A stretch of DNA of 64,000 bases from Ancylobacter aquaticus (GTDB lineage: Bacteria; Pseudomonadota; Alphaproteobacteria; Rhizobiales; Xanthobacteraceae), in contig NZ_SMFY01000001.1 of assembly GCF_004339465.1 (NCBI RefSeq), positions 1,426,001-1,490,000 on the forward strand, written 5' to 3'. Position 1 is the first letter of the stretch, and each line of letters starts with the position of its first letter. The translations under genes were made by a program, and so were the position numbers. The notes under the pieces are model-generated. The model saw only the letters and a list, made by a program, of their open reading frames with translations, ran no database searches and was not told the DNA's origin. Below, in pieces: positions 23,351-40,545 of this stretch.

Positions 23351-23404
23351 TTCTGGTACAGCTGGGTGGGCTCGAACCACCGACCTCCGGTTCCACAGAC
23401 CGGC
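23351..23404. repeat. attL: partial tRNA-His copy (54-bp direct repeat)
   Basis: The 54 bases are identical to 40492-40545 and hold the anticodon loop to the CCA end of tRNA-His on the minus strand. Beyond 23404 the sequence diverges from the tRNA, so this copy is the displaced original 3' half left by integration. Confidence 0.93.
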
Positions 23405-23488: not shown

Positions 23489-24631
23489 TCACTCGGAGAG
23501 CAGCCGGGCCTCAATCTGGGCCATGGCGTTTCGATCGTCATCGTCCGATGGGAACAGATAGCCATAGAGATCGAACGTCATCTGGATCGACGAATGGCCC
23601 ATGAGCGCCTGCACCTTCTTCGGCGGAAAGCCCTGTTCGATGAATAGCGCCGCAGCAGCGTGCCGGAGGGCATGCAGGCTGAACTTCGCATCGGGAACCT
23701 GAATCGAATTGCCGTCCTCGCCGAGAGCGTCGCGCATCACTGTCACGCCAGCCTTGATCTGCGCCGGCCAGAACACGCGGTTGAGGATATTCGTGTGTTC
23801 CTCGATGCGGCCGGAGGCGTTCGGGAAGACCAACCCGAGAGCGCCGTTTGGGCATTGAAGTTTCCACGCCTTGAGCCCGGTGACGCTGGTCTGCGATAGC
23901 GGAATGTCACGCGTGCCGGCTTTCGACTTGGGCGGGCCAAAGGAGCCCTTCCGGTCGACACGGCGCCGAACGTGGATCATGCCCGCGTCGAGATTCACAT
24001 CCGACCAAAGCAGCCCGCGCAGTTCACTGCTTCGCATACCCGTGAGCATGGCGGTGCGGATGAAGGGCTTCCAGCGGGCTGGGGTGTGCTTGAGGATCGC
24101 GGCCAGTTCCGCCTTGGTCGGCATATCGATATGCGGGCCGCTTCGGCGAGCATGCGGCAGCTTCACCTCCCGCGCGGGGTTGTGGGATGCACGACCGTCA
24201 CGCATGGCCTGGGCGAAGATGGAGGTGATGCAGGAAAGAGCTTTCCGTGCCGACGAGCGCGACAAGATCGCTGCCACCTCATCCACGGCCGACTGAATCA
24301 TCGGCGCTCCAATCTTCGATAGCTTCGTCTTGCCAAGCCTGGGCTTGACGTGATGCTCATACGTCGAGCGGTAGCGCTCGATCGTCATCTGCTCAAGCCC
24401 GACCTCTGCACACTTGGCCAGCCAGCGCTCACCCGCATCGGCGAGCGTGACGCTTGCCGACTCCGCCGTGTGGATGCCACGCGAGACCTCTCCTCGCGCA
24501 TGCACCAGGAAAGAATCGGCTTCCTTCTTCGTCGTGAACTGACGGTGGCGTCGCTTGCCACCGCCGTCCACATAGTCCGCTTGCCAGCAGGTCTTGCCGG
24601 AAGGCAGCGTACGTTTGCGGATGGTCGCCAT
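23489..24631 (-). CDS. int: Tyrosine recombinase (phage integrase)
   Basis: This 380-residue protein has an amino-terminal arm-binding region, a SAM-like core-binding domain (about 60-150) and a catalytic domain with all expected residues: Arg200 in TGMRSSELRGL, a Lys in PPKSKAG near 235, HALRH (His320, Arg323), GHSSIQ (His346) and the nucleophile Tyr356 in FDLYGYLF. It would integrate and excise the element at tRNA-His. It ends 85 bases from attL. Its start overlaps the stop of the upstream hypothetical gene by one base, so it is read as the last gene of the leftward operon. Confidence 0.95.
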   Translation of the reverse strand: MATIRKRTLPSGKTCWQADYVDGGGKRRHRQFTTKKEADSFLVHARGEVSRGIHTAESASVTLADAGERWLAKCAEVGLEQMTIERYRSTYEHHVKPRLGKTKLSKIGAPMIQSAVDEVAAILSRSSARKALSCITSIFAQAMRDGRASHNPAREVKLPHARRSGPHIDMPTKAELAAILKHTPARWKPFIRTAMLTGMRSSELRGLLWSDVNLDAGMIHVRRRVDRKGSFGPPKSKAGTRDIPLSQTSVTGLKAWKLQCPNGALGLVFPNASGRIEEHTNILNRVFWPAQIKAGVTVMRDALGEDGNSIQVPDAKFSLHALRHAAAALFIEQGFPPKKVQALMGHSSIQMTFDLYGYLFPSDDDDRNAMAQIEARLLSE

Positions 24632-25209
24632 CAGGCCTTTCCCTCATCAACCGCGAAGGCGAGATCCTCAAGCGCTTCCGCCTCCGTCAGCGCGATGTCG
24701 AGCGCGTCGTCCAGGAGGTTCCACTCGTCACCGCGAGACTCCCCCTCATCCAGCGCCAGTTTGGCCAGCCGGATCGTCGATCGCACGCGCCCCGCCATGC
24801 CGGGCAAAGCGGAGGTTGCAGGCCTGACGGCCTTGATCTCCGCACCGAACTGCCGAAACAGCTGGCGGTACTCGTCCGGTAATTCGTCGATGTAGGCGTG
24901 CATCATCACCTCATGTTTCGCTGCCAGATCGCTCAGAGAGCCAACAGGCATCGCGAGGATTGCGAGGCCGGCAGCATCCGCTGCGGCGAAGTCCTCGCCG
25001 GTCATGAGCGCCCTGAAGGCCGTCATGCGGGTGCTGATAGTTCTGTCGTCGTCGGTTGCCTCGAACTCCACCGGGGCTTTGTCAGCCGGCCGATCGGGGT
25101 TCGAAGGCCGCCGTGCCGGCGCTGTGCCGGTCTGTCCGGCACGCAGGTCGTGGAGGTGGCGTGCGGCGGCGATGGCGCGATCGACGTCGGTGGGCGTGCG
25201 GAGGTTCAT
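24631..25209 (-). CDS. Phage-type hypothetical protein
   Basis: This 192-residue soluble protein has a polar, disordered amino-terminal third (AGQTGTAPARRPSNPDRPAD) and a mostly helical acidic remainder ending ALTEAEALEDLAFAVDEGKA. I recognise no domain. It belongs to the leftward early operon that ends in the integrase, with one base of overlap to int and 3 bases to the gene before it. Confidence 0.6.
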   Translation of the reverse strand: MNLRTPTDVDRAIAAARHLHDLRAGQTGTAPARRPSNPDRPADKAPVEFEATDDDRTISTRMTAFRALMTGEDFAAADAAGLAILAMPVGSLSDLAAKHEVMMHAYIDELPDEYRQLFRQFGAEIKAVRPATSALPGMAGRVRSTIRLAKLALDEGESRGDEWNLLDDALDIALTEAEALEDLAFAVDEGKA

Positions 25210-25212
25210 TGC

Positions 25213-25449
25213 TCAACCCTCCGCCGAGACGGCGCGGACGGCCGCGATCGACGTGAACCGCGAGAGGAAGACGCCGGCATGCGCGAGGATGCGGCGCGCC
25301 GCTTCATCATCCGGCGGAAGCATGCTGCAGAACTTCGCCGCGACCTGGCGCTCGAGGGCGTCGCGGAGCTCGTCGTTTGTGGCGCGGGTGGCGGGGATGG
25401 GGTCATTCGCAGGCAAGCCGATCCCGGCTGCCGATCGTGTGATCGTCAT
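25213..25449 (-). CDS. Small phage-type hypothetical protein
   Basis: This 78-residue protein begins MTITRSAAGIG; GGAG lies 6 bases upstream, favouring this start over the ATG 12 bases earlier. The body is amphipathic helices (NDELRDALERQVAAKFCSML). No function is recognised. It is in the leftward operon. Confidence 0.55.
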   Translation of the reverse strand: MTITRSAAGIGLPANDPIPATRATNDELRDALERQVAAKFCSMLPPDDEAARRILAHAGVFLSRFTSIAAVRAVSAEG

Positions 25450-25510
25450 GATGGTCTCCATCGATGTTGAGAAAAGAGGCGTCCGAGCCGAAGCCCGGCT
25501 AGAACGAGAG

Positions 25511-25936
25511 TTAGATGTTGGCCGGGCGGCCTTCGGCCATGCGGGCCTGCTCGGCGACTGCGCGGGCAGCTTCCTTCCGCGAGATCAGATAGATTGCGGC
25601 TTGCGTCGACACGTTCGGCATCAGAGCGTGCAGAAGGTCATCGATCACGCGCTGCGGACTGTTGGGGAAAGAGCGAAAGCCAATTGCCCGCATGATCTCG
25701 GAGGTCGCTTCCGACAGAGTGTAGGGCTCACCCTCATCATACGTTGATGCGAGTGCATCGAGAGCATTGACCGGAATGGAGTCCGGCGCTTCAGCCATGG
25801 CCTGCAGGCGCTCAAGCAATTCCGCTGCTTGTTTATTGGCGGAGGAATCGTGCTCCTCAGCAACGCGGCGCCGCCAGTCCGCTGTGTCCGAAAACTGTCC
25901 CGCTAGAGCCTCGGCGGCTTCTTCTCGTGTCGTCAT
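25511..25936 (-). CDS. Phage-type hypothetical protein
   Basis: This 141-residue acidic, helical protein begins MTTREEAAEALAGQF, with GAGGAA upstream. A second ATG two codons earlier is also possible. No conserved motif is recognised. It is the second gene of the leftward operon. Confidence 0.6.
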   Translation of the reverse strand: MTTREEAAEALAGQFSDTADWRRRVAEEHDSSANKQAAELLERLQAMAEAPDSIPVNALDALASTYDEGEPYTLSEATSEIMRAIGFRSFPNSPQRVIDDLLHALMPNVSTQAAIYLISRKEAARAVAEQARMAEGRPANI

Positions 25937-25968
25937 GTGCATATTTCCTCTTGCGTCAGTTCAAGCTG

Positions 25969-26334
25969 TCAGGCGGTAGCGGCCGGGGTGGAGTCCGGCT
26001 TCAAGCTGACGTATCCCGACTGGTGACCACAGTGATGGTCGCGCATCTCGTGCAGTTTGATGTGGTTCTGGTCGAAGATGAAGTCGAACTGGATGACCTC
26101 GCGCGAGGTCTCCTCGACACGGAGATTCACCCGTCGTCCGGCGTGGATCTCCACATCGTAAGCCATCAAGGCCAGTGTCTCGGGCGACACCTTGGCTCGC
26201 AGGATGCGGATCATGTCCTGCATATCGCTCCATTCCTGCCGCTCCTTCGGGAGGCTCTGGATGTAGGCAATGGCGTAGGTAAGCGCCTTGCCTTCGACGA
26301 ACCAATCGCGGCCGCTGATTTCCGTGTCGCTCAT
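25969..26334 (-). CDS. First gene of the leftward operon, hypothetical
   Basis: This 121-residue protein starts MSDTEISGRDWFVEGKAL; GGAGG lies 8 bases upstream. It has a helical first half and a beta-rich second half (VNLRVEETSREVIQFDFIF) and ends with several His residues (HHCGHQSGY). No domain is recognised. Being first after the divergent operators, it is a candidate for a regulator, but no helix-turn-helix is visible. Confidence 0.6.
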   Translation of the reverse strand: MSDTEISGRDWFVEGKALTYAIAYIQSLPKERQEWSDMQDMIRILRAKVSPETLALMAYDVEIHAGRRVNLRVEETSREVIQFDFIFDQNHIKLHEMRDHHCGHQSGYVSLKPDSTPAATA

Positions 26335-26387
26335 GCTCTCTCCTCCTTGCCGGCGCCCCGGCGGGTTCTGATTGGCGTAATCAGAAA

Positions 26388-26485
26388 ATATCCGAAATCT
26401 TGCGGCCGTCAACTGATATCGGATGAAATACGAAAAGATTTCAGATTTTATCCGATATATCGTTGACGTCGGTATGAAATCGGAT
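26388..26485. promoter_or_regulatory. Divergent A+T-rich control region with four operator-like repeats
   Basis: Four copies of a related octamer occur in about 100 bases: ATATCCGAAAT (26388), TATCGGAT (26417), ATCCGATA (26450) and AATCGGAT (26478), in alternating orientation. The segment is far richer in A+T than its surroundings and separates the leftward integrase operon from the rightward early operon. This is the expected layout of a repressor-controlled genetic switch. Confidence 0.65.
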
Positions 26486-26540
26486 TATTTACGAAATCGA
26501 ACTTGGCTTGTAGAAAGGAGGGAGCCTCAGAGGAGTAGAG

Positions 26541-27215
26541 ATGGCCACGCCTGCGCAGTTAGTTGGAGCCGTTGCCGCGACATTCGGCATCCCAGAAACC
26601 ACCGTCATCACTCACGACCGCAACTTGGCGAAGGCCGGATTGCGCACGGTTGGGGGGAGGGGGACGGGTGCGGCTCAGATGACCAGCCGCGACGCTGCTC
26701 ATCTGTTGATTGCGGCGGCGAGTGATGCTCCAGTTAAAGACTCTGTGGAGGTTGTTTTGCGCCATCAGGCGTGCAGGCGCGTGCCTCTAGGGTCGATAGC
26801 TGACGCCTTTCCCTCATCGCATTTGATAGACCTTCCAGAAGATCACAGTTTTGTAGATTTTTTGGAAGCAATAATACAGTCATACGTTAAAGGTGAGATT
26901 ATTGCAGGCAATGATGGTTTAAAAATTGCTTTAGATGAAGAAAAAAATGATGAGGAAAACTTAGAGACCGTGGTTTCATTCTTATTTCGTCTATCAAATC
27001 CCTACTTTAGGGCTCGGATAGAGACTTATAGAATTGTGTTTAAGCCAACAAATAATATTGATTTTGAGTACAAGGCTGAATTTGAAAGAAAAATCAATCA
27101 TTTCTACGTTAATTCGGATGTGAGTGAGTCTCAGGGTTATGATCTGAGGCATGAGCACATTTTCACGGATAGGACCATCAAAACGATCGGCAACCTCCTG
27201 AGGGGAGATCCATGA
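26541..27215 (+). CDS. Early-region protein with mosaic composition
   Basis: This 224-residue protein has two parts. Residues 1 to about 75 (PAQLVGAVAATFGIPETTV, THDRNLAKAGLRT, RDAAHLLIAAA) match an amino-terminal, probably helix-turn-helix-like module common in alphaproteobacterial prophages. The rest, from about base 26815, is strongly A+T-rich, with a sudden change in codon use, and is rich in Asn, Lys, Ile and Phe. The carboxy part is not recognised. GAGGAG stands upstream of the ATG, and the stop overlaps the next start (ATGA). It is the first gene rightward of the operators. Confidence 0.65.
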   Translation: MATPAQLVGAVAATFGIPETTVITHDRNLAKAGLRTVGGRGTGAAQMTSRDAAHLLIAAASDAPVKDSVEVVLRHQACRRVPLGSIADAFPSSHLIDLPEDHSFVDFLEAIIQSYVKGEIIAGNDGLKIALDEEKNDEENLETVVSFLFRLSNPYFRARIETYRIVFKPTNNIDFEYKAEFERKINHFYVNSDVSESQGYDLRHEHIFTDRTIKTIGNLLRGDP

Positions 27216-27412
27216 ACGACAACCAGCCTGTCGCCGCCGATATATTGCGCGGTGCAGATGAGATTGCAGCCTTCCTAGGTCTCGACAAACGCGCAATCTA
27301 CCACGCGGCGAGCCGCCAGAAGTTGCCGACATTCCGCCTGGGGGCAATCATCTGCGCTCGGCGCTCGACCTTGCTGTCATGGATATCCGAGCAAGAGAGG
27401 AAAGCGGCCTAG
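27212..27412 (+). CDS. Excisionase/AlpA-like helix-turn-helix protein
   Basis: This 66-residue protein has the MerR/AlpA-type winged-helix layout: GADEIAAFLGLDKRAIYHAA followed by RQKLPTFRLGAIICARRSTL. Such small proteins act as recombination directionality factors or activators of excision. The start overlaps the previous stop by 4 bases. DNA binding is inferred from fold; the excisionase role is inferred from size and position. Confidence 0.75.
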   Translation: MNDNQPVAADILRGADEIAAFLGLDKRAIYHAASRQKLPTFRLGAIICARRSTLLSWISEQERKAA

Positions 27413-27505
27413 CGCTCCACCTCTCCCGGGGCCCGAGCCTTAGCTCCGGCCCCCCGCCGCGTAGTCGGCCCCAGCTTCCCCACCACCCACACACAGGAGG
27501 CGCCC

Positions 27506-27757
27506 GTGCGCATCCTCTCCATCCGTCCCGGCCCGCCGGGATCGGCAGTGTTGGCCCATGTCGATATCGAAGTCGCCGGCCTCCGCATTTATGACGTCGT
27601 CATCAGACGGGCCGCAGATGGCTCGCTTAGGGCCTTCCCGTCCGAGCGCGGCCGCAAGGCGACGGTCAGTTTCGGCATTGAATTCGCAGAATCCATCACG
27701 CGCGCCGCGCTTCCGGCGATTGAGGGCAATAGCCATGCTGACCGCGACGCAGCCTGA
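27506..27757 (+). CDS. SpoVG-like small protein
   Basis: This 83-residue protein starts at a GTG with AGGAGG 5 bases upstream. The pattern AHVDIEVAGLRIYDVVIRR...FPSERGR resembles the beta-sheet core of SpoVG-type nucleic-acid-binding proteins (short beta hairpin, then a P-S motif). In phages such genes sit beside replication genes, as here. Assignment is by pattern only. It overlaps the primase gene by 23 bases. Confidence 0.5.
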   Translation: MRILSIRPGPPGSAVLAHVDIEVAGLRIYDVVIRRAADGSLRAFPSERGRKATVSFGIEFAESITRAALPAIEGNSHADRDAA

Positions 27758-29900
27758 CCTTCCCACCTCTCCCGTCCGCACCCACGTCGAAATGCTGCAC
27801 CGCCTCGCGCAGGGCGTCGACGGGGTTCTTGTCGTGTCGGTATTCAACGCGAGCCTGTCGCACGACAAGGGCATCATAACCCATCACCGCGTCGGCGATG
27901 TGGGGGGCATGGTAGCGGCGATAGAGGCCCACCAGGGCACCGTCGGCGCCAATGTCTATGTCGGATTGCAGGTAATGCGCAGCGGCCTCAAGCGTGGCCT
28001 TCGGGGCACAGAGGCCGACATTGTCGCCGTCCTCGGACTTGTCGCCGACATGGACGCCGACACTGGCAAGGCCGCCGGCCCGTACCCGCTGCCCCCTAAT
28101 CTCGTCATCGAGACCTCCCCCGGCAATCTGCAGCCGATGTGGACGTTCGACCGACCTGTGGCGCCTGCAGTCGCCAAGGCCGTTGCGCGGGGCCTGAAGA
28201 CGGCCACAGGCTCCGACCATGGAACGGCGGATATCGCTCATGTCTGGCGGGTGCCGGGCACGCTGAACTGGCCGAACGCAACCAAGTTGGCGCGGGGCCG
28301 CAGCGCCGAGCCCGCTCCTGTGACGGTCGCTGAACCCTGGGACGGCACCCTCACGGACCCGGCGGCTCTGGCGATTGCTGTCGGAGGGCATGACACCCCC
28401 GGCGATGCGGCCCCCGTAACACTGGACGACCTTCCGGAGGTGGACGGCATCGAGGTGTCGCCCGACGCTGCTCTTCTGCTTGCCGCTTGCGACGTCGGAG
28501 ATCGATCCGCTCATGCCGCGCGTGTCGTCGAGAAGTTGGCCTTTGACGGCCATCCGGCAGAGGTGGCGGCCGCGCTGTTCCTGTCGGCAAGCGGGGACTG
28601 GCTACAGCGATACGCCAGCGACGTGCGCGCGAGGACGGACTTTGCGCGGATGTGGGGACGGTTCGGCGAGCCGCATGCCCAGGCGCGAGAGGCTGGAGAA
28701 GCCATGGCGGCGAACCTCAAGGCGAAAGCAGCGAACGATAACGAGCCGCAGTCTGCGGAGGTCTCGCGCAAGCCACCTCTGTTCATTTCATCGGGCGATT
28801 TCGTGCGTGGATTCCGTCCGCCAGATTATCTGCTGGACGGCATCATGCAGTCGGGGTTCCTGTACTCACTCACAGGCCAGACCGGCGCCGGTAAGACGGC
28901 GGTGGCGCTCCTGTTGTCCGCCTGCGTAGCCCAAGGGATGCCCTTCGCCGGCCGTGAGACTAAGGCCGGACGGGTCTTCTACTTTGCCGGTGAGAATCCC
29001 GACGACGTCACCATGCGGTGGATTGGCCTATGCCACGCGCTCGGCCTCGATGCCGACGACCTGGACGTGCACTTCATTCGCGGGGTGTTCGATATCGACC
29101 AGTTTCTTGACCACATCCGCGCGGAGGCCGACCGCCTGGGCGGCGTCGGGTTGATCGTGGTTGATACCACCGCGGCATACTTTCTGGGCACCGACGAAAA
29201 TTCAAACGTGGAGATGGGCAGGTATGCCCGCCTGCTCCGCGACCTCGCGCTGCTCCCGCCGCGGCCTGCGGTGCTGGCGGCATCACATCCGGTAAAGAAC
29301 GCGACTGCGGACACTCTACTTCCTCGAGGGGGCGGCGCCTTCTTGAACGAGCTTGACGGCAACCTCACTCTCGCCAAGCGCGGCGACGCATCGTCCCTAC
29401 ACTGGCTCGGGAAGCATCGCGGGCCGGACTTCAAACCGTTGCTCTTCGACATGAAGCAGGTGACGGCGCCGGGGCTCGTAGATAGCCGAGGGCGCGACAT
29501 TCCGACCGTCCTTGCCTCTCCCGTTGGCGAGGAGGAAGTTGCGCAACGTGCGGATGCCGGCAACCGAGACGACGATGAGATCTTGCTGGCCATACGCGCC
29601 AACGGCAATCGCTCGCTCTCGGATTTCGCCGCGGACCTCGGCTGGTACTCGGAAGATGGGAAGGGCGACAAGCAGCGCGCCGCCAACGCTACCGATCGCC
29701 TCAAGCGCCAGGATTTGGTCCAATACGCCGCGCGTGTCTGGAAACTTACGCGGAAGGGTGTGGAGGTGGCCGGCCCCATTGCCGAGCGCGTCCACATGCG
29801 CAAATCCGGCGAGCGCCTCGCCGAGACCGTGGTATCCAACCGGAGAGGCAGGGCGCCTCGGGGCAAGAACCGTAGCGGCTCCAGCCGTAGCGCGGCATAG
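27735..29900 (+). CDS. RepB-type primase fused to a RepA/DnaB-like AAA helicase
   Basis: This 721-residue protein appears to be the element's replication enzyme. Residues about 20-190 match RepB-type primases: VADMDADTG (Asp105, Asp107), VIETSPGNLQPMW, GSDHGTADIAH and VWRVPGTLNWPN. A AAA_25/RecA-like domain follows with Walker A GQTGAGKT near 380 and Walker B LIVVDTTAAYF near 472, then a DNA-binding-like carboxy part. It would unwind and prime element DNA from an origin; a repeat cluster lies directly downstream and overlaps its 3' end. The ATG at 27735 was chosen where primase homology starts. Confidence 0.85.
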   Translation: MLTATQPDLPTSPVRTHVEMLHRLAQGVDGVLVVSVFNASLSHDKGIITHHRVGDVGGMVAAIEAHQGTVGANVYVGLQVMRSGLKRGLRGTEADIVAVLGLVADMDADTGKAAGPYPLPPNLVIETSPGNLQPMWTFDRPVAPAVAKAVARGLKTATGSDHGTADIAHVWRVPGTLNWPNATKLARGRSAEPAPVTVAEPWDGTLTDPAALAIAVGGHDTPGDAAPVTLDDLPEVDGIEVSPDAALLLAACDVGDRSAHAARVVEKLAFDGHPAEVAAALFLSASGDWLQRYASDVRARTDFARMWGRFGEPHAQAREAGEAMAANLKAKAANDNEPQSAEVSRKPPLFISSGDFVRGFRPPDYLLDGIMQSGFLYSLTGQTGAGKTAVALLLSACVAQGMPFAGRETKAGRVFYFAGENPDDVTMRWIGLCHALGLDADDLDVHFIRGVFDIDQFLDHIRAEADRLGGVGLIVVDTTAAYFLGTDENSNVEMGRYARLLRDLALLPPRPAVLAASHPVKNATADTLLPRGGGAFLNELDGNLTLAKRGDASSLHWLGKHRGPDFKPLLFDMKQVTAPGLVDSRGRDIPTVLASPVGEEEVAQRADAGNRDDDEILLAIRANGNRSLSDFAADLGWYSEDGKGDKQRAANATDRLKRQDLVQYAARVWKLTRKGVEVAGPIAERVHMRKSGERLAETVVSNRRGRAPRGKNRSGSSRSAA

Positions 29901-30160
29901 AACACACTACGGGTACAGAGAATAACCCTTCAATATCAATGCACTATAGCCGTAGCGCGCGAGATGTGCAGCAGTAAAAACCCATGCAACGCGGCGAGAG
30001 GGGGGATTTCATCCCCTCTCTGCCGCAAGGGTCGAAAATCAAGTCGTAGCGTAGCTTACCTTTACTAGGGGGCATCAAAACGCTACGGAGTAACAATTAT
30101 ATAGTTATATCAATGATTTAACCCCGTAGCGCAGCATGTTATTGTGGCGCGTGCTACGCT
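29870..30160. other. Candidate replication origin: CCGTAGCGC iteron-like cluster
   Basis: The core CGTAGC occurs seven times in about 290 bases. Forward copies start at 29870, 29885, 29950, 30044 and 30124; reverse copies lie at 30081-30089 and 30153-30159. A 30-base A+T-only-like stretch (30091-30120) sits between copies and could be a DNA unwinding element, and an 8-bp hairpin lies at 29996-30020. The cluster begins at the end of the primase-helicase gene and continues through a gene-free stretch. It has the hallmarks of an origin bound by the adjacent replication protein. Confidence 0.6.
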
Positions 30161-30239
30161 CACGGGCACCCCTAAAAAATAAGTCCGAAACTCGCGGGGT
30201 CGCGCGTGAATGACCCCCGCCGTTCCTGCGGCCGAAGGC

Positions 30240-30295
30240 GCCAGGGGACCTCGACGCCCCCCCCCACCCACAGGGGGGTGGGTCGGTTCCCTAGG
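30240..30295. other. Nested hairpin between replication and structural modules
   Basis: A perfect 8-bp inverted repeat (CCCCACCC / GGGGTGGG, 30262-30282, 5-base loop) is nested in an outer near-repeat (AGGGGACC / GGTTCCCT). In phages this position often carries the packaging site before the small terminase gene. A cos or pac role is only a suggestion. Confidence 0.35.
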
Positions 30296-30359
30296 GCGCT
30301 TTGACCCCGGACCGGCGGGGTAAGAAAAGTTTCACATCCGCAAAATTCGGAATTCCAAA

Positions 30360-30437
30360 ATGGCTCGACCGAGGAAGCCGACCGCTGTCCTCGAGTTGAA
30401 GGGCGCGAGGGCACTGGCGGCCAGTGCCGCGACTTAG
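30360..30437 (+). pseudogene. Remnant of a small terminase (P27-like) gene start
   Basis: A 25-codon frame reads MARPRKPTAVLELKGA and then nine unrelated codons before TAG. The first 16 residues resemble the conserved beginning of P27-family small terminase subunits in alphaproteobacterial prophages. No continuation of the family is seen in any frame, and no large terminase follows. I read this as a deletion junction that removed the packaging genes. The match is short, so it could be chance. Confidence 0.4.
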
Positions 30438-30541
30438 GACAACTCGGCGCCTCCGATCATATTCCGCCCACCGACCGGTGCCCGCGCCTATTTGGCCAGT
30501 AGAAGGTCATGGCGCGGTGCCGGATCCAGAGGGCTTGGCAT

Positions 30542-31441
30542 ATGAACCTGGACGGCAGCACCTGCCGGTGCCCAGCGCTGCATCGCGCCATCGTTGGTCA
30601 CTGGCACCTGCGAGCGCCAGCGAACGACTCCGAACTCATCCCCCGCGACAGGCCGGGCAAGGGCCGTCACCCGGACCTAGCCGACGTAGTGCCAGCGCTC
30701 CGGGCCTGGCGGGATCTGCACTCACCATCCGTGCCGCTCACTACGAACTGGTTGGCGTCAGCCGCGAACGACAATGCTGCCGAAGAGCCCTTCGACGCCT
30801 ATGAAGATGAATGGCGGGAAACCCTGCCGGCGCCCTCGGTAGACTCCCAGATGGAGATGCGCCCCCGGCCGGAAGAGCTTGTCCGGGCAATGGGCGACGT
30901 GGAGATTGCGCATAGCGAGTTCGGCGGCCCAGCCGTGCCCGTTGGCGGAGACATGGACGTCCACCCCGGTATGGAGCCTGCCGTTATCGGCGGCACGCCC
31001 TGCGCCCCTCTGGCCCGCATGGGGGCGCTGCGGTTCGGTAATGGCGAGACGCACGAGCGCGGCATGGTGCGGGCCGCGGGCGGGGTGATCCGTGCTGGGG
31101 AGATCCCGGTGCCGCGTGGCGCGCTTACCCATTGTGGCCCGTTCGCGGTGCGCGACCGTCACACGTCGTGGCATGGCTCGGTTGACGGCAAGATTGACCC
31201 GGCATCAGCATCGCCGTCCATCAGCATCGAGGACCGGATCGACGCCGAGAGGCTGGCCGGACGACTTCGGCAGCAACTGGGCGCAAATGACGTGGCTGTG
31301 CTCGACACAGCGCTCGAGGCACAGAACCTCGCCGACATCGGCGAATTGGTCGGACTCACCGGCAAGCACGCACAACGCGAAGGAAAGGTGATGCTGCGAG
31401 CCGCTGCAGAACGTCTGCGGGAAATGCTGCAGGCCGCCTAG
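30542..31441 (+). CDS. Phage protein with sigma-region-4-like carboxy end
   Basis: This protein of about 299 residues is Ala/Pro-rich and poorly structured through much of its length (GALRFGNGETHERG and PRGALTHCGPFAVRDRH in the middle). Its last 75 residues (RLRQQLGANDVAVLDTALEA..., NLADIGELVGLTGKHAQREG) look like a helix-turn-helix of sigma region 4 type. Relatives occur upstream of packaging genes in alphaproteobacterial prophages. A role in late transcription is possible but unproven. The start is uncertain; 30542 has GAGGG upstream. Confidence 0.6.
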   Translation: MNLDGSTCRCPALHRAIVGHWHLRAPANDSELIPRDRPGKGRHPDLADVVPALRAWRDLHSPSVPLTTNWLASAANDNAAEEPFDAYEDEWRETLPAPSVDSQMEMRPRPEELVRAMGDVEIAHSEFGGPAVPVGGDMDVHPGMEPAVIGGTPCAPLARMGALRFGNGETHERGMVRAAGGVIRAGEIPVPRGALTHCGPFAVRDRHTSWHGSVDGKIDPASASPSISIEDRIDAERLAGRLRQQLGANDVAVLDTALEAQNLADIGELVGLTGKHAQREGKVMLRAAAERLREMLQAA

Positions 31442-31597
31442 TCCCTTTCTGGCACCTGGGCCGGAATAGTAATGAAGGGCTCCTCGCAGCGCCCTCCACT
31501 ACAGCCTGGCTTCGGCCGGTCTCTTCCCCTCGTTGACCGCGGATGTACCGGCAGCGCGGGGATTTCTTTTCTCTCGAAATTGGACATGGGTCCCAGA

Positions 31598-31999
31598 ATG
31601 ACGAACGTCGCCTTGACGGTGGACGACGTCGCGCACGTCGTCGGGCTGCCTGTCAGCCACATCAGAAGTTGGTTGAAGCGCTCCGCCGTCGGGTTCGGCA
31701 CCCGGCTTTTCAATCGACGAGTGCGCTTCAATCTTGATGAGGTCCGCGGCCTAGCCGTAATGCGGGAACTCGTGCGCCACGGGCAGGCGCCCAATCGTGC
31801 GGCTCGAGAAGCGGCAGCAATAGTTCGCCAGGCCGGGGGCAAGGACGCGGTCGCCGTCTGCAGCGCAAGCCCGGACCACGCTCCAGTTGTGGTCCCGCCC
31901 GAATACGTCCGTCCATACCTGGAGAAGGTGCGGATCGTGGTGCCCTTGGCGCCGCTGTGGGCCGAAGTCGACGCGCGCATCGCAGGGTTGCGGCGGTGA
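31598..31999 (+). CDS. MerR-like helix-turn-helix protein
   Basis: This 133-residue protein opens LTVDDVAHVVGLPVSHIRSW and continues TRLFNRRVRFNLDEVRGLAV, the winged-helix pattern of MerR-type DNA-binding proteins, followed by a helical segment without a visible sensor cysteine cluster. It may regulate the late cassette. Another ATG lies 12 bases earlier. Its stop codon overlaps the GTG start of the ClpP-like gene by 4 bases. Confidence 0.65.
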   Translation: MTNVALTVDDVAHVVGLPVSHIRSWLKRSAVGFGTRLFNRRVRFNLDEVRGLAVMRELVRHGQAPNRAAREAAAIVRQAGGKDAVAVCSASPDHAPVVVPPEYVRPYLEKVRIVVPLAPLWAEVDARIAGLRR

Positions 32000-32586
32000 T
32001 CGGTCTGGATATCGGCACCGACGATCAGCCGCTATCTCGGGCTGAAGCAGAGTTAGCGCGTTCGGAAGGCAGAGGTGGCCCGCAAGACGTGTTGCTGGCG
32101 ATCCATGGCGAGATCGACACCAGCACCCGCGACCGTGTGTATGCCGCCCTCGAGGCAGCACAGTTCGCTGCTGAACTGCACATCGATATCGATTCCTGCG
32201 GCGGGCAGCCCGGTGCGGCGATCGATATCTACGCGGCGATCATCAGCTATCCCGCCATCACCAAGACGGCCGTTATCCGCAACGCGGAGTCCGCCGCGTT
32301 GCTCATAGCGATGGCGGCCGACCATCGATGCGCCGTCCCCGGCGCCCGCATCACTTTGCACCGCGCCGCCGGCGAGCCCGAACCTGGACTTCGGTGGACG
32401 GCCGACATGCATGCCGCGTCCGCTGACTTTCTCAACTGGCTGGACACCGAAATGGCCAGGTTATTGGCAATCAGAACCGGCACGCCCGGCGAGGCGTTCG
32501 AGACCGAGATGCAGTCCGAGGACAGCAGCTCATTGGTCTGGTGCCTTGACAACCGAGTTATTCACGAGATCAGGGACATAAAATGA
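31996..32586 (+). CDS. ClpP-like serine protease (phage prohead protease type)
   Basis: This 196-residue protein has the ClpP/crotonase-fold core: LHIDIDSCGGQPGAAIDIYA (residues 61-80), NAESAALLIAMAAD with Ser99, and ITLHRAA with His122. In siphophages such proteins mature the head and precede or fuse to the major capsid. No capsid gene is present in the element, so its substrate is unclear. It starts at GTG overlapping the MerR-like stop (GTGA) and ends overlapping the next gene (ATGA). Confidence 0.75.
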   Translation: MIGLDIGTDDQPLSRAEAELARSEGRGGPQDVLLAIHGEIDTSTRDRVYAALEAAQFAAELHIDIDSCGGQPGAAIDIYAAIISYPAITKTAVIRNAESAALLIAMAADHRCAVPGARITLHRAAGEPEPGLRWTADMHAASADFLNWLDTEMARLLAIRTGTPGEAFETEMQSEDSSSLVWCLDNRVIHEIRDIK

Positions 32587-32882
32587 CTTTGGACACGAAA
32601 GCATTCAGCGACGTGGTCGCCGCCACAGTCAAGGAATACGTCCAGCGGGAAGCGCTCGATCGCATCGACGCCCTTGAAAAGCGCCTCGCCGAGGTAGAGG
32701 CGTCTGGCCTGAGGTTCTTGGGCGTTTGGCAGCGGGCCGTCGACTATCGACGCGGCAGCGTCGTGACCAGCGAGGGAAGTTCCTGGGTCGCGCTGAAGGC
32801 GACGTCTCCCGCCGAGAAGCCGGGAGACTGTGATGCGTGGGCATTGGTCGCGCAACGTGGCCGAGATGGGAGGGTAGCGTGA
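32583..32882 (+). CDS. Coiled-coil protein with phage fibre/carbohydrate-binding-like repeat
   Basis: This 99-residue protein has an amino-terminal helix with heptad character (VKEYVQREALDRIDALEKRL) and a carboxy domain GVWQRAVDYRRGSVVTSEGS then SWVALKATSPAEKPGD, a pattern seen in phage fibre-like or head-decoration proteins that bind sugars. It ends abruptly after GRDGR, where such proteins usually continue into a collagen-like region, so it may be shortened. It is coupled by 4-base overlap to the ClpP-like gene. Confidence 0.6.
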   Translation: MTLDTKAFSDVVAATVKEYVQREALDRIDALEKRLAEVEASGLRFLGVWQRAVDYRRGSVVTSEGSSWVALKATSPAEKPGDCDAWALVAQRGRDGRVA

Positions 32883-33121
32883 TGAATGAGAATGAAATTG
32901 TGGTGGCGCTGGCCGAGAAAGTCCGCCGTCAGCTGCGCGATCGGACGCACGCTGGATCTGAAGGGGCCGAGGCCGAGTTGATCGCCCAGGGGGCATCGCC
33001 AGCGGATGCGGAGACGCAGGCCGCCGCCTTCTTCGGCCTCGCCATGAACGGCGTCGACGCCGAGATGCCTCGCCTGACCGGCGAGATCCGCGAGTTCGTC
33101 CGCGAGGCTGCCCGCCGGTGA
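32882..33121 (+). CDS. Small phage-type hypothetical protein
   Basis: This 79-residue acidic helical protein begins MNENEIVVALAEKVRRQL. The ATG shares its first base with the end of the preceding stop codon. No function is recognised. Confidence 0.6.
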   Translation: MNENEIVVALAEKVRRQLRDRTHAGSEGAEAELIAQGASPADAETQAAAFFGLAMNGVDAEMPRLTGEIREFVREAARR

Positions 33122-33144
33122 CCGGGGGGGACTTCCCCGGTTTA
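33121..33144 (+). terminator. Weak terminator-like hairpin within the structural cassette
   Basis: A 7-bp stem (ACCGGGG / CCCCGGT) with a 7-base loop is followed by TTT. It overlaps the stop of the preceding small gene and may reduce read-through to the tail genes. Confidence 0.45.
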
Positions 33145-33215
33145 GATCGCCTTCGACCGGAGGAACGGCAGGGGTCAATCGCGCACATATCCGCAATTCA
33201 AAAGTTGGGGGTCAT

Positions 33216-33434
33216 ATGACCACAGATGAAGCCGCGCATTCCGCGGCGCAGGACGCCGTGGCCGCCTTCGCAATCGCCGCCGAGGCTAGCGGCTACGACA
33301 TGGCCTCGATTGGCGAGGCGCTTGTTCACGGCGGGATGATCGTGATGAGCCGCGCCCTTGGCGCCGAGCAGGCCGGGTTCACCGGGCTTGTTGCCGTTCG
33401 CGCGGCGATAGCAGGAGAGCTCAATGGCCACTGA
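33216..33434 (+). CDS. Small phage-type hypothetical protein
   Basis: This 72-residue helical protein begins MTTDEAAHSAAQDAVAAF and contains GYDMASIGEALVHGGMIVM. It overlaps the tail chaperone gene by 11 bases, which implies coupled translation. No function is recognised. Confidence 0.6.
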   Translation: MTTDEAAHSAAQDAVAAFAIAAEASGYDMASIGEALVHGGMIVMSRALGAEQAGFTGLVAVRAAIAGELNGH

Positions 33435-33804
33435 CGCGCGCATCGAATTGGACTGGGCGGATGGCACCCATGTCTTCCGCCTGGCCATCGGCCAGCTTGC
33501 CGAACTGCAGGACAAAACCAACGCCGGCCCGCTGGTGCTTTTCGAGCGCCTTCGCACCGGCTCCTGGCGCATCGAGGACATCACCAACACCATCCGGCTC
33601 GGCCTTATGGGCGGCGGCATGCCTCCCGTAGACGCCCTTAAGAAGGTCCGCACTTATGTCGAAGACCGGCCATGGACCGAGAACGTCCCGACGGCGATGA
33701 TGGTGCTCATGGCGGCCCTGTACGGTGCGCCGGAGGACGACTCGGGAAACGTCGCAGCGGCGGAACCGGAGATCGCCTCGACGATCTCCCCAACGGCCGG
33801 TTGA
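33424..33804 (+). CDS. Tail assembly chaperone, GTA gp10-like (Phage_TAC_11 type)
   Basis: This 126-residue protein matches the gene transfer agent gp10-like family: ELDWADGTHVFRLAIGQLAE, then GPLVLFERLRTGSWRIEDI and IRLGLMGGGMPPVDAL. Such proteins bind the tape measure protein during tail assembly. It overlaps the next gene at a TTGA junction. Confidence 0.8.
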   Translation: MATDARIELDWADGTHVFRLAIGQLAELQDKTNAGPLVLFERLRTGSWRIEDITNTIRLGLMGGGMPPVDALKKVRTYVEDRPWTENVPTAMMVLMAALYGAPEDDSGNVAAAEPEIASTISPTAG

Positions 33805-33977
33805 GGTTCCGCCGCATATTCGGCGCCGGCACGGCCATGGGGCTTGGGCCGGCGCAAATTCGCGACTTGTCCCTGTGGGAGTTCGGGGCCGCAGTCGACG
33901 GATGGGCCGACGCCCATACAGAAAGCGGCAGCGAGCCGCCTACTGAAGAGTTCCTAAACTGGGCTTTGAGCGAGTAA
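33801..33977 (+). CDS. Tail assembly chaperone, rcc01693-like (Phage_TAC_6 type)
   Basis: This 58-residue protein, RFRRIFGAGTAMGLGPAQIR followed by LSLWEFGAAVDGWADAHTE, matches the small second tail chaperone of gene transfer agents. The start is taken as TTG at 33801 because it overlaps the previous stop (TTGA) like the other junctions in this operon; an ATG at 33837 is the alternative. Length fits the family. Confidence 0.72.
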   Translation: MRFRRIFGAGTAMGLGPAQIRDLSLWEFGAAVDGWADAHTESGSEPPTEEFLNWALSE

Positions 33978-34381
33978 TGGCCAAGAACTGGTCGACGGAC
34001 GAGCTCCGGCGGGCGCTGCGCAAGGTCGCGCCCGCCGTGGCAAAACGCGGCGATGAAGCGCTGAAGATCAACGCGCAAGAATGGGTGGATGCCGCGAAAT
34101 CAGCGGCGCCGTCCGATCCGGATGGCGGGTCCTTCTTGCGGCAATCGATCCGGAACGAAGAGAGCGACACGGGTGGCCAAATCGTGCGTGCCGGCGGCCC
34201 GACGACGACGCGAGACGGGGCGAACGGTCCCTATGATTATGCCCGCGCGCAGGAGTTCGGCCGGAGCGATATGCAGGCCAACCCCTATTTCTGGCCGACG
34301 TACCGACTGTTGAAAAAGCGATTTATCAGCCGCCGGCGCCGCGCGGTGAACCAGGCGATTAAGGAATCAATTAATGGCTAA
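33977..34381 (+). CDS. HK97 gp10-like head-tail/neck protein
   Basis: This 134-residue protein shows the HK97-gp10 pattern: a helical start (LRRALRKVAPAVAKRGDEAL), a central GGSFLRQSIRNEE, and a late YARAQEFGRSDMQANPYFWP, where family members have YxxxxEfGt..mpa.Pf. It normally stops or links tail to head. Its place between the tail chaperones and the tape measure gene is not the usual one, since it normally precedes the tail tube gene. Start overlaps the preceding TAA by one base. Confidence 0.7.
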   Translation: MAKNWSTDELRRALRKVAPAVAKRGDEALKINAQEWVDAAKSAAPSDPDGGSFLRQSIRNEESDTGGQIVRAGGPTTTRDGANGPYDYARAQEFGRSDMQANPYFWPTYRLLKKRFISRRRRAVNQAIKESING

Positions 34382-36494
34382 CGAACCCGCGCTTTATGCG
34401 CGGATGGAACTGCGCATCCGGGATTTCGAGCGGCAGCTTCAGAAGGCGCAGTCTGCTGCTGACGCTTCCATGGCGAAGATCTCGCGAAGCTCCGAGCGTG
34501 CCACCAAGGCGGTGGAAAGCCGATTTGCCGCCATGGGCAAAGGCGCGGGGTCCTCATTGGCATCGTTCGGCCGCACCGCTGCCGCCGGCCTGCTGGCCTC
34601 GCTTGGCGCCCGCGAGATCGGCCAGGCCGCCGCAGCGTATGTGAACCTGCAAAATACCCTCAAGGTCGCCGGCCTGGAGGGGCAGGCGCTCACCGGCACA
34701 TTCCAGCAACTATTCGAGATCGCCCAGCGCAACGGCACCGCGATCGAACCGCTGGTGACGCTTTATAGCCGGCTTTCGCAGTCCCAAACCGAGCTAGGCG
34801 CATCGTCGGATGACCTTATCAAGTTCACCGACGGTATATCCTTGGCGCTGCGCGTGGGCGGCACCAATGCCGAGGCAGCTTCGGGTGCCCTGTTGCAGCT
34901 TTCGCAGGCCCTTGGCTCGTCTGTTGTGCGAGCAGAGGAGTTCAATTCTATTAATGAGGGCGCCCGGCCCATCCTCCAGGCCGTTGCCAATGGTCTCGAG
35001 GAAGCCGGTGGGTCCGTCTCCAAGCTGCGAACGCTTGTTCTCGCCGGCTCGGTCTCTAACAAGACCTTCTTCGACGCCTTCAATGCAGGAACGGGCGGCT
35101 TGGCGGTCCAGGCAGCGAAGGCCGCCGGCACCACCGACCAGGCGGTGTCGCGCATCAACAACGCCTTCGTGCTGTTGATCGGGAAGCTCGACGAGACGAC
35201 GGGCGCGAGCAGAAACGCCGCGGGAAATCTTGACGGGGTGGCATCTGCGATCGAGAAGATGCCCGGCCTCATCGATCGTGCTGTGGCGGGGTTCAAGAGC
35301 CTGCGAGACTATCTGTCAGAAGTCGGCAACATGCCGGTGTGGCGGAAGCTCGGCGAGTTCCTTGGTGGCGACTACAGCCCCGAGGGGCTCGCAAAGGTCG
35401 GCATCACCTACGTGCCGCCGGGCTCGGAAAAGAAGTCCGCCGGTTCATCCCGCCGAGGCGGCGCTACTATGGCGCAAACGGGCATTGAAACGGTCTCGAT
35501 CAAGGACGCGCCGGTAGACGACGAGAAGGCGACGAAAGAGCGGATCAACTCCTACGAGCGGCTTACTGCGGCCATCACGGAGCGCACTGGCGCCATCCAA
35601 GCGGAGACCGAGGCGCAGGCCGGGCTCAATCCGCTGGTGAACGATTATGGCTTTGCGGTCGAAAAAGCGCGGGCTGAGTATGACCTACTTCAGGCCGCCC
35701 ATGAGGCAGGGCTGACCGTCACGCCGCAGCTGGAAGCGCAGATCGAGGCCCTGGCGACGTCCTACGCCGATGCGTCGGTCGCCGCCGCACACCTCGCAGA
35801 GGCGCAGGGGAAGGTCCAGGAATCGGCGGCCGAGTTCAACGACATCGGCCGGGATGTTCTTGGCGGGTTCATCAGCGACATACAGCGCGGCGTGTCGGCG
35901 GCGGCTGCCCTGGAGGGCGCCCTGGCGAAGGTCGCGGACAAGTTGCTCGACATTGCGCTGAACTCCATCTTCCCCAGTAGCGGGGGCGGCGGCATCGGCG
36001 CTGCAATTGCCTCTGCCTTCGGCGGCTCCGTTAGCGGCTCCGGCGGCATCGGCCACGCGGCGACTGGTGGCCGCATTCGTGGCCCCGGTAGCGGAACGTC
36101 GGATAGCGTCCCCATGATGCTGTCCAACGGCGAGTACGTGGTGCGGGCCAGCCAAGCCAAGAAGCACGCCGCGCTGCTCGAGGCCATCAACAGCGGCACC
36201 GTCGGCATGATGGCGGCGGGCGGGTTCGTCGCGCCCACGCTGCCCCGCATGCCGGCTCGGTCGGGTGGTGGGTCGGTGGGTGGCGCGGCTCCGCAACTCA
36301 ACCTGCAGATCATCAACCAGTCTGACGCGAAGGTCACTACGTCTCAGCCGACACGGCGCGCCGACGGCGGTTTCGACCAGAAAGTCCTCATCCGCATGAT
36401 GGAGGACGTGGTGGTCAACCAGATGACGGACGGGAGCCGAGGGTCACAAGTATTGAAGCGTCAATGGGGCTTGCGCAGGAGCGACCTGGCGTAA
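34374..36494 (+). CDS. Tail tape measure protein
   Basis: This 706-residue protein has the tape-measure amino-terminal domain (YVNLQNTLKVAGLEGQALTG, then LLQLSQALGSSVVRAEEFNS), Ala-rich helices, a coiled-coil stretch at about 390-500, and a Gly-rich hydrophobic segment (GGGGIGAAIASAFGGSVSGS) near 540. It sets tail length in siphophages. At 706 residues it would specify a short to mid-length tail. It is the last coupled gene of the cassette; no distal tail or baseplate gene follows. Confidence 0.88.
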   Translation: MANEPALYARMELRIRDFERQLQKAQSAADASMAKISRSSERATKAVESRFAAMGKGAGSSLASFGRTAAAGLLASLGAREIGQAAAAYVNLQNTLKVAGLEGQALTGTFQQLFEIAQRNGTAIEPLVTLYSRLSQSQTELGASSDDLIKFTDGISLALRVGGTNAEAASGALLQLSQALGSSVVRAEEFNSINEGARPILQAVANGLEEAGGSVSKLRTLVLAGSVSNKTFFDAFNAGTGGLAVQAAKAAGTTDQAVSRINNAFVLLIGKLDETTGASRNAAGNLDGVASAIEKMPGLIDRAVAGFKSLRDYLSEVGNMPVWRKLGEFLGGDYSPEGLAKVGITYVPPGSEKKSAGSSRRGGATMAQTGIETVSIKDAPVDDEKATKERINSYERLTAAITERTGAIQAETEAQAGLNPLVNDYGFAVEKARAEYDLLQAAHEAGLTVTPQLEAQIEALATSYADASVAAAHLAEAQGKVQESAAEFNDIGRDVLGGFISDIQRGVSAAAALEGALAKVADKLLDIALNSIFPSSGGGGIGAAIASAFGGSVSGSGGIGHAATGGRIRGPGSGTSDSVPMMLSNGEYVVRASQAKKHAALLEAINSGTVGMMAAGGFVAPTLPRMPARSGGGSVGGAAPQLNLQIINQSDAKVTTSQPTRRADGGFDQKVLIRMMEDVVVNQMTDGSRGSQVLKRQWGLRRSDLA

Positions 36495-36504
36495 ACGGCA
36501 CCTA

Positions 36505-36530
36505 CCGGGCGCGCCCGCAACCGCGCCCGG
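36505..36530 (+). other. GC-rich hairpin after the tape measure gene
   Basis: A 9-bp perfect stem (CCGGGCGCG / CGCGCCCGG) with an 8-base loop begins 10 bases after the stop codon. It has no T run, so it may act as a message-stabilising or factor-dependent end. Confidence 0.4.
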
Positions 36531-36623
36531 CCACCCGACCAAGGCTCGGGCAAAGATATGGTCAGGCGGACTGCTATAACCCAGATGAGTGACTTTGGGG
36601 AAGATTCCTTGCGACCCGGCCGG

Positions 36624-36800
36624 CTAGCCCTTCGACGCTTCGTCGATCATCGCCTCAACCGCGGCAAGCGCCACCTCAATGTCGCCGATCTTTCGTAGCG
36701 CGTTGTCGGGCGGCGTGGCTCCCGCCTCAGCAGCGGCCACAATCAATGTGCGTTGCGCTGTCAGCAGTCGGGCACGGAGGGCTTGGAGTTTGTCGGTCAT
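36624..36800 (-). CDS. Small helical hypothetical protein on the opposite strand
   Basis: This 58-residue frame begins MTDKLQALRARLLTAQRT and ends VALAAVEAMIDEASKG, two amphipathic helices typical of small phage proteins. No good ribosome binding site is seen. It is the only intact-looking leftward gene to the right of the control region. Otherwise the stretch 36531-36919 holds nothing I recognise. Confidence 0.4.
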   Translation of the reverse strand: MTDKLQALRARLLTAQRTLIVAAAEAGATPPDNALRKIGDIEVALAAVEAMIDEASKG

Positions 36801-36919
36801 GGGCGGGGCTTAACCCGCCATGTGACGGTGAGCAAGCGGCCCCAATCGTTCCGCTCGCGGAATGCCACTTGTTCCGCTTTTGTTCTCATGCGATCCATGA
36901 CTGCCTGATGGAGGTCGCC

Positions 36920-37156
36920 ATGGTCCAACGAAGCAAAAGAAGCCTATCCGCCCATGAGGCCGGGCAAATGCAGCGCGAGCTGCGGGCGTTTCACAGCCGA
37001 GTGCGCGTGTGGTGCGGCGAGGTGCCGATTGGCGAGCCGGCGTATGTGGCGTTGGAAAGCCTGAACAGCGCTCTCATCCTGATGGATCGCCAGTTGCAGG
37101 GCGCGATAGACGGCGATCTAAAGGCTTGGCCGCCTGGGTATCAGGGGCTGCCGTGA
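36920..37156 (+). CDS. Small phage-type hypothetical protein
   Basis: This 78-residue protein begins MVQRSKRSLSAHEAGQMQRE; GGAGG lies 5 bases before the ATG at 36920, which decides the start. The remainder is helical and ends LKAWPPGYQGLP. No function is recognised. A possible 24-codon frame starts at its last base (37156) and ends at 37230; I cannot support it further. Confidence 0.55.
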   Translation: MVQRSKRSLSAHEAGQMQRELRAFHSRVRVWCGEVPIGEPAYVALESLNSALILMDRQLQGAIDGDLKAWPPGYQGLP

Positions 37157-37275
37157 TGGGTAAGAATCCTGTGCCGGCCATTAAGGCCTTCCTCGCTGCT
37201 GGCACAGGAGGGTTAGACACACATGAATGAAATGCAGTAGAAGTCTGGGAGGTAATTTTAGTCTGCGGTGCCAGT

Positions 37276-38001: not shown

Positions 38002-38034
38002 TCGTTGTCGGTTGACGAGCGCGAAGGGTGGGAT

Positions 38035-38230
38035 TAAAGTTCCAACACTTCAGGTGGAAACACCTCGACCGCACTTACGCCTTGCGGTCGATAAATATCA
38101 GGTGCGGCGCAAGCTGCACAGGTCCGAGCGAGCGCCAGATGAGGCCAGCCCATAAGGGGCGAGTATCACAAGCCGGGGATCGGTCGGCGAATTTGGCTAA
38201 GGGGATCGGTTGACCGATCCCCTTTTCATT
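38035..38230 (+). ncRNA. Candidate structured non-coding RNA
   Basis: Within about 195 bases without an open frame there are, in order: a 5-bp stem with a GAAA tetraloop (38052-38065), an 8-bp stem CGACCGCA / TGCGGTCG with a 9-base loop (38066-38090), a 7-bp stem with a GCAA tetraloop (38102-38119), and a long intrinsic terminator (38199-38230). Two GNRA loops plus a terminator suggest a folded transcript. No known RNA family was recognised, and no reverse transcriptase gene is nearby. Confidence 0.35.
38199..38230. terminator. Strong intrinsic terminator
   Basis: An 11-bp perfect stem (AAGGGGATCGG / CCGATCCCCTT) with a TTGA loop is followed by TTCATTTT. It ends the transcript that starts with the PRTase-like gene or the candidate RNA. 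Confidence 0.8.
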
Positions 38231-38240
38231 TTAGCACCAC

Positions 38241-38570: not shown

Positions 38571-38663
38571 TTATCGTCGGTGAGACACTAGCACCTCGGC
38601 GGCTGGAAGTTTCGGAGGTTCTTCCGTGCGCTTTCGCTCAACCCATTTGAGGGGAGCAGGCGT

Positions 38664-40491: not shown

Positions 40492-40545
40492 TTCTGGTAC
40501 AGCTGGGTGGGCTCGAACCACCGACCTCCGGTTCCACAGACCGGC
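40492..40545. repeat. attR: 54-bp direct repeat inside the intact tRNA-His gene
   Basis: The 54 bases are identical to 23351-23404. Here they belong to the complete tRNA-His gene, so the element supplies the 3' half of the working tRNA. Confidence 0.93.

Follow-up and report, generated by a model that had tools for sequence, protein, structure and literature searches.

The segment directly 3' of the gene rep in a phage-derived element of Ancylobacter aquaticus is most probably a replication origin, one that would be bound by the C-terminal domain of its own helicase-initiator, Rep. The element lies in a 64-kb stretch of contig NZ_SMFY01000001.1 (positions 1,426,001 to 1,490,000; hereafter the window, from whose first letter all coordinates are counted). 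The case for an origin rests on the iterons, hairpin and A+T-rich segment that directly follow rep (Table 1); on repeat clusters that recur at the same place beside homologues, with words that track the recognition-helix segment of the protein; on conservation of the non-coding segment in the nearest homologous locus, L025, where the next 300 bases are not conserved; on loci sharing only the primase half of Rep, which have other repeats or none that is clear; on the C-terminal domain of Rep, which models as a winged helix; and on published precedents with origins immediately 3' of genes of this kind (SaPI, pRN1 and, as a proposal, Cch2). An origin with a dedicated initiator had been suggested in the initial annotation of this DNA; the support that it now has, from L025 conservation, cluster position and helix tracking, is comparative rather than experimental.

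Table 1. Features of the integrated element discussed in the text (window coordinates; a dot marks features given without strand)
Feature	Position	Strand	Evidence
Origin region: iterons, hairpin and A+T-rich segment (predicted)	29870..30160	.	Motif counts, L025 alignment
Iteron CGTAGCG, inside rep	29871..29877	+	
Iteron CGTAGCG, inside rep	29886..29892	+	
Iteron, one mismatch	29905..29911	-	
Iteron CGTAGCG	29951..29957	+	
Hairpin, 5' arm G-rich, loop T-rich	29997..30021	+	Compensatory changes across 27 selected loci
Iteron CGTAGCG	30045..30051	+	
Iteron, one mismatch, overlaps preceding iteron	30050..30056	+	
CTAG box 3' of hairpin	30060..30072	+	Similar patterns in 22/27 hairpin loci, chosen after viewing
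Iteron CGTAGCG	30081..30087	-	
A+T-rich segment, candidate unwinding element	30091..30121	.	4 G+C in 31; conserved in L025
Iteron CGTAGCG	30125..30131	+	
Iteron, one mismatch	30152..30158	-	
Rep: primase, helicase and winged-helix initiator, one chain	27732..29900	+	722 amino acids
Rep C-terminal winged-helix domain, residues 598-722	29523..29897	+	AlphaFold2 model, PDB fold matches
Predicted recognition helix, residues 647-659	29670..29708	+	Model secondary structure; iteron distance tracking
attL-like 54-nt direct repeat, copies part of tRNA-His	23351..23404	.	100% identical to 40492-40545
attR-like 54-nt direct repeat overlapping tRNA-His (40495-40571, minus)	40492..40545	.	Empty sites in sister genomes
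Tyrosine integrase	23489..24631	-	Phage_integrase E 2e-20; phrog_1 E 1.6e-71
Small helix-turn-helix protein	27212..27412	+	HTH_17 E 5e-5 (below curated cut-off); phrog_18541, function unknown, E 2e-19

Repeats, hairpin and A+T-rich segment

The initial annotation counted seven CGTAGC cores in both orientations. Both orientations are present, but there are eight exact cores at 29871-30158 (six on the plus strand and two on the minus strand), and nine sites match CGTAGCG with at most one mismatch, six of them exactly. The A+T-rich segment and the hairpin that it named are also there, and the cluster does begin at the end of the replication gene, its first two cores lying inside the open reading frame (ORF), which stops at 29900. 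The next plus-strand ORFs of at least 100 amino acids start at 30424 and 30509, and an 80 amino acid ORF occupies 30172-30414 on the minus strand. An Rfam scan of 29000-31000 gave no match; scanning for promoters and for terminators produced a single match in each case, each on the minus strand.

How unusual is the cluster? Over the whole window CGTAGC occurs at chance level (26 copies against a mean of 24.5 in dinucleotide shuffles), and we rejected its overall frequency as evidence; locally, however, its density is unusual, no other 300 bp of the window being as rich in this motif. The whole genome (4.83 Mb) contains 88 exact copies of CCGTAGCGC, three of them at 29885-30132, within 250 bp, and among the matches listed genome-wide no second triplet is equally close. 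Two further CCGTAGCGC pairs (G000:C1:124521-124652 and G000:C5:252630-252763) have nearly equal spacing (123 and 125 bp). Three other G+C-rich 7-mers likewise reach six copies per approximately 300 bp within the window, so repeat density in the window is not decisive by itself; conservation decides. At the 50-bp scale, the lowest-GC windows within 24631-40316 start elsewhere (26411; 26896-27056), not at the A+T-rich segment.

The nearest homologue, L025, encodes a Rep that is 78% identical and has six CGTAGC cores, a hairpin, a CTAG box and an A+T-rich segment. The non-coding stretch 29901-30165 is identical to it at 188 of 249 aligned bases (75%), whereas over the next 300 bases the alignment is no better than that of shuffled sequence. 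The other window-element genes compared have no match (tblastn, E 1e-4) in the L042/L043 stretch around the L025 homologue.

The wider comparison started from 117 sequences, the window and 116 loci. Thirteen in which the C-terminal half had no usable match on the plus strand were removed (L017-L023, L035, L037-L039, L044 and L127, the last matching on the minus strand only), 21 with identical downstream sequence were merged and three were too short; the 80 loci kept for counts include L040 and L041, whose gene ends are broken or displaced as judged by eye. In 51 of the 80 loci some 7-mer has at least five copies in the 500 bp at the end of rep, compared with 31 of 2309 control windows; the rep-end count exceeds every control window of the same locus in 50 loci. 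The position of the cluster is conserved more widely than the exact motif, which is kept only in L025. The repeat word varies by lineage: it is CGTAGCG in the window and L025, and CGGTACG, CGGTGCG, CGGGACG, TCGTGCG, CGGACGA, CGTTCCA, CGTAACA, CGGGACA and more in others. At least four copies of a 7-mer ending in [AG]C[AG] are found in 48 of the 80 loci, 44 of which are non-redundant; a frame of four bases followed by ACA or ACG (N4-AC[AG]), derived from these same data, fits 36 of the 44.

In a closer group (the window, L009-L016, L025, L027-L034 and L036), every one of the 19 members with an intact origin carries a hairpin whose 5' arm is rich in G; it starts 69-179 nt past the rep stop. Thirteen of these hairpins come from a strict G-run search, which finds 23 among the 80 loci, and six (L011-L014, L016 and L031) from a looser pattern added after viewing. 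We aligned 27 loci selected for having the hairpin, with L061 and L067 left out: four of the six consensus pairs show two-sided changes that preserve pairing, and every pair has between 2 and 8 loci in which it is broken or gapped. Unaligned hairpin strength was rejected as an origin test because it did not separate origins from controls, so the claim for the hairpin rests on position and compensatory changes. Two patterns picked by eye accompany it, ATCAA 44-64 nt upstream in 17 of the 27 loci and a CTAG-like pattern (one of six similar ones) downstream in 22, with the copy in L032 placed differently. A constant GTG priming start like that of ssiA in plasmid RSF1010 was not seen by eye after the hairpin. 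The RSF1010 primase RepB' recognises two 40-nt sites, ssiA and ssiB, of which ssiA has a hairpin (excerpts of PMC4434180). Since that site is hairpin-bearing, a priming role for the hairpin described here is a reasonable suggestion, albeit a tentative one that we rate slightly below even odds.

Rep and its proposed recognition of the repeats

The start of Rep at 27732 is our choice; the first listed start is 27558. The primase half matches RepB_primase (PF16793; E 8e-7, 29.5 bits against a cut-off of 24.3) and, weakly, 3h25 (phmmer, E 0.09); the helicase part matches AAA_25 (E 1e-25), and the C-terminal region has no Pfam match. The AlphaFold2 model of full-length Rep (81 aligned rows) has a mean predicted local distance difference test score (pLDDT) of 89.9 and a predicted template modelling score of 0.55, which makes the domain arrangement less sure. 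Its helicase fold is closest to RSF1010 RepA (1g8y; Z 21.7, 2.8 A over 216 residues, 21% identity), and because DnaB chains tie with it within 1 Z, the RepA/DnaB fold class is surer than RepA itself; the list from this comparison was filled by one domain and did not cover the primase fold. Predicted alone (62 rows; pLDDT 92.0), the C-terminal domain matches winged helices in the PDB such as the MarR and PadR regulators, with Z up to 11.4, a value at which the tool advises caution for folds that are mostly helical. Foldseek gave no E below 0.001 for this domain.

Does the repeat word follow the protein? Over the 44 loci, repeat distance (on either strand, with small shifts permitted) correlates with difference in residues 646-654 beyond the rest of 560-700 (partial r 0.290; 0 of 3000 permutations, figures that are not exact probabilities because the loci are related). 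Among 120 nine-residue windows covering residues 345-713, 642-650 and 645-653 rank first and second, with partial r of 0.351 and 0.336 (all 120: mean 0.016, standard deviation 0.097). The co-variation signal lies at the start of the recognition helix, which a model built without iteron data places at 647-659. At residue 651, Glu pairs with GGG before AC in six of six cases, Gly with A in three of three, and Gln with T in seven of 12, with one further case ambiguous. Predicting the repeats from the nearest helix succeeds above chance at all four identity cut-offs.

Several results weigh against the origin and its proposed recognition, besides the relatedness of the loci. In 29 of the 80 loci no 7-mer reaches five copies, and hairpin strength is not exceptional, exceeding 95% of controls in just 13 of the 80. 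The residue window 648-656, wholly inside the recognition helix, ranks tenth of 120 (r 0.145), and in an earlier per-residue scan column 648 came second to column 572, which lies outside the winged helix. The nearest helix outperforms the nearest rest-of-protein only below 50% identity (p 0.013; otherwise 0.087, 0.12 and 0.6). Of ten fresh divergent loci, two reach five copies, three have four and five are without a clear repeat; helix-based prediction for them, judged by eye, was exact for one repeat (the nearest helices being tied), near for two and wrong for two. L173 was left out of this set, being on the same contig as L101, and so were the remaining candidate loci, mostly contigs already included earlier. 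Outside the ten, L158 (94% to L085) has the expected CGGGACA six times and L159 (91% to L085) has no clear repeat. We slightly lowered our confidence in the origin and in the readable repeat because the in-helix window came tenth and the fresh loci were mixed.

Parts of the module seem to have been exchanged. L044, from the same genus, is approximately 74% identical to Rep over approximately 330 residues in the primase half only; it has DUF3987 in place of AAA_25, and AGGCATGTC stands five times after the gene. Among the other loci sharing only this half, L037 has DUF3987 and three copies of ACTTGCGC, L017 has DUF3987 and no clear repeat, L039 has neither AAA_25 nor DUF3987 and no clear repeat, and L038 has no clear repeat. 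L035 shares the primase half too; its ORF is apparently broken before the helicase end, and its gene end was left out. L099, L111 and L126 keep AAA_25 and the repeat cluster, with a Prim-Pol primase (PF09250) rather than the RepB_primase (PF16793) of L009 and the window. Together, these two types of locus suggest that the origin moves with the helicase-winged-helix half and that the primase is swapped.

The integrated element and its relatives

The element measures 17.1 kb between its two 54-nt repeats, and the integrase adjoins the left copy. In six sister genomes (G010, G012, G013, G016, G018 and G029) the sequences that match the left and the right flank join exactly, so the site is empty there. 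Rep has a match in three of 30 genomes of the genus, its own counted, and in five of 397 genomes of the order (E 1e-60, 19-row profile of the C-terminal half).

Family scans place a Clp-type head maturation protease and tail tube, neck/tail-completion and tape measure proteins 3' of the origin. Among the 20 element ORFs scanned we found no terminase, major capsid or complete portal; a 99 amino acid ORF matches the end of portal family phrog_1289 (E 2e-6). In L009 and L011, on contigs of 41-42 kb, terminase and portal genes follow downstream of the module at a distance of approximately 4 kb. Near rep, L028 and L042/L043 carry genes for a head protease and a tape measure protein; the proteins scanned there (5 and 10, part of the gene content) include no terminase. 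Since these loci show a similar partial gene set among the proteins scanned, the element, with its integrase, rep and origin, protease and tail genes, may be of a satellite type and not merely a decayed prophage.

Three further observations concern the rest of the element. A DnaQ/RNase_T-type exonuclease gene (38964-40316) directly adjoins attR. The ORF at 37276-38001 has a third-position GC of 0.56, far below its neighbours, and no Pfam or PHROG match; it is possible recent cargo. The lowest-GC 50-bp windows starting at 26896-27056 directly precede the small helix-turn-helix gene, whose product we take to be AlpA/excisionase-like from its position, and the region 26411-27105 is perhaps an early control region.

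Proposed mechanism, alternatives and implications

A mechanism can be sketched in which excision of the element would precede replication. Iterons of 7 bp on both strands would be bound by the winged helix of Rep, after which helicase rings would load on the adjoining A+T-rich DNA, melted there. Rep would also start DNA synthesis through its own primase domain, possibly at the conserved hairpin; a host polymerase would then copy the circle.

By domain content Rep most nearly resembles a fusion of the RSF1010 RepB', RepA and RepC functions. Common to it and the RSF1010/IncQ system are a RepB_primase-family primase, a helicase fold matching RepA, iterons, an A+T-rich segment and a hairpin that could serve priming. 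Here, however, one polypeptide stands for three proteins (RepB', RepA and RepC), the 7-bp repeats are in both orientations, one conserved hairpin was recognised where RSF1010 has two ssi sites (ssiA and ssiB, one per strand), and the replicon is an integrated phage-like element and not a plasmid. No family match naming RepC was found among the 20 element ORFs scanned, and the winged helix is fused to the helicase.

Origins directly 3' of the initiator gene have precedents. According to excerpts of PMC7581432, the origin of SaPI consists of short repeats directly 3' of the Rep gene, read by the C-terminal domain of Rep, and one of the same kind has been proposed directly 3' of the gene for SCCmec Cch2. 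As described there, SaPI/PICI Rep and Cch2 share with our protein a helicase-initiator with a C-terminal DNA-binding domain (in Rep a predicted one, its reading of the repeats being suggested by co-variation) and short iterons 3' of the gene, but the SaPI and Cch2 helicases are of DUF927 and D5/Primase_Cterm types (PMC7581432); unlike SaPI/PICI, the element has a RepB'-type primase fused to the helicase, and its relatives also occur in terminase- and portal-bearing contigs. For pRN1, excerpts of PMC4234260 describe an origin with a stem-loop, 3' of a gene that encodes primase, helicase and winged helix; the order of domains in pRN1/BIP-1 is the same as in Rep, the 3' stem-loop likewise varies in sequence and keeps its structure, and some homologues of Rep carry a Prim-Pol domain. 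The pRN1 origin, however, is without iterons, its helicase belongs to another superfamily (superfamily 3, SF3), and its hairpin has approximately 100 nt compared with approximately 25 here. Exchange of the origin module and change of iterons within one element family are also described for RepA and the origin of the Vibrio cholerae PLE satellites, where the ICP1 nuclease Odn may select for such change (excerpts of PMC8263062). PLE iterons differ in being three semi-palindromes of approximately 30 bp.

Could the repeats have another function? They might be operators for the downstream operon, bound by Rep or another regulator, with replication starting elsewhere. Several relatives have a tandem repeat pair shortly before an ATG, after a CTAG or CTATAG box (seen by eye), and the window has one weak promoter-like match on the minus strand (29970-29943). 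However, the repeats begin within rep and span approximately 290 bp with the hairpin and A+T-rich segment in between, the next plus-strand ORFs of at least 100 amino acids start approximately 270 and 350 bp past the last repeat, and in the first locus set no upstream window rose above its shuffles at the 7-mer level. We consider this explanation unlikely, and an operator role would be compatible with an origin role.

A packaging function, with the repeats as cos/pac sites to which a small terminase would bind, is very improbable: the terminase and portal genes of L009 and L011, approximately 4 kb and more downstream of rep, would fit it, but the window element keeps rep and repeats with no terminase among its scanned ORFs, the partial protein sets scanned near rep in L028 and L042/L043 agree, and the repeat word tracks Rep itself. 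We also think it very improbable that the prophage is dead and the cluster in it decayed or due to chance. The absence of terminase, major capsid and complete portal among the scanned ORFs, and the three window words that match the raw 7-mer density, speak for this reading; against it, the reading frame of Rep is open for all 722 residues, and conservation with L025 is about as strong in the non-coding segment as in the gene.

The P4-type layout that the initial annotation had proposed (in P4 itself, an alpha protein with ori/crr repeats) did not hold up, and we give it almost no weight. P4 follows the same logic, with one multi-domain protein, origin repeats and an integrase at a tRNA gene, and its alpha helicase is of SF3 type. 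Rep differs in both enzyme domains, Pfam finding RepB_primase and AAA_25 only; the primase is RepB'-like and the helicase fold RecA/DnaB-like, with RSF1010 RepA and DnaB as its matches. P4 alpha has a TOPRIM primase (excerpts of PMC4234260).

The reading as an origin bound by its own initiator leads to a broader and more doubtful proposal, somewhat less likely to be right than wrong: that temperate phages and short phage-like elements, met in Hyphomicrobiales genomes and metagenome viral contigs, carry the RSF1010 RepB'/RepA/RepC functions in one chain, with a 7-bp address that has been repeatedly rewritten and is partly readable. The address would mostly consist of four variable bases and then ACA or ACG, changing in step with a few residues where the recognition helix starts (approximately 646-651), while the hairpin and box layout would stay constant within the closer group. 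We found no description of this family's replication in the literature searched, a search that subscription papers mostly lay outside. For a group of phage-like elements the analysis predicts an origin and the segment of the initiator that would contact it, and because many natural initiator-repeat pairs exist, the way in which origin specificity changes while function is kept can be tested with native parts alone. If the proposal is true, a rewritten address would let replicons escape cross-initiation or counter-defences that target the origin, and origin recognition could partly be read from sequence.

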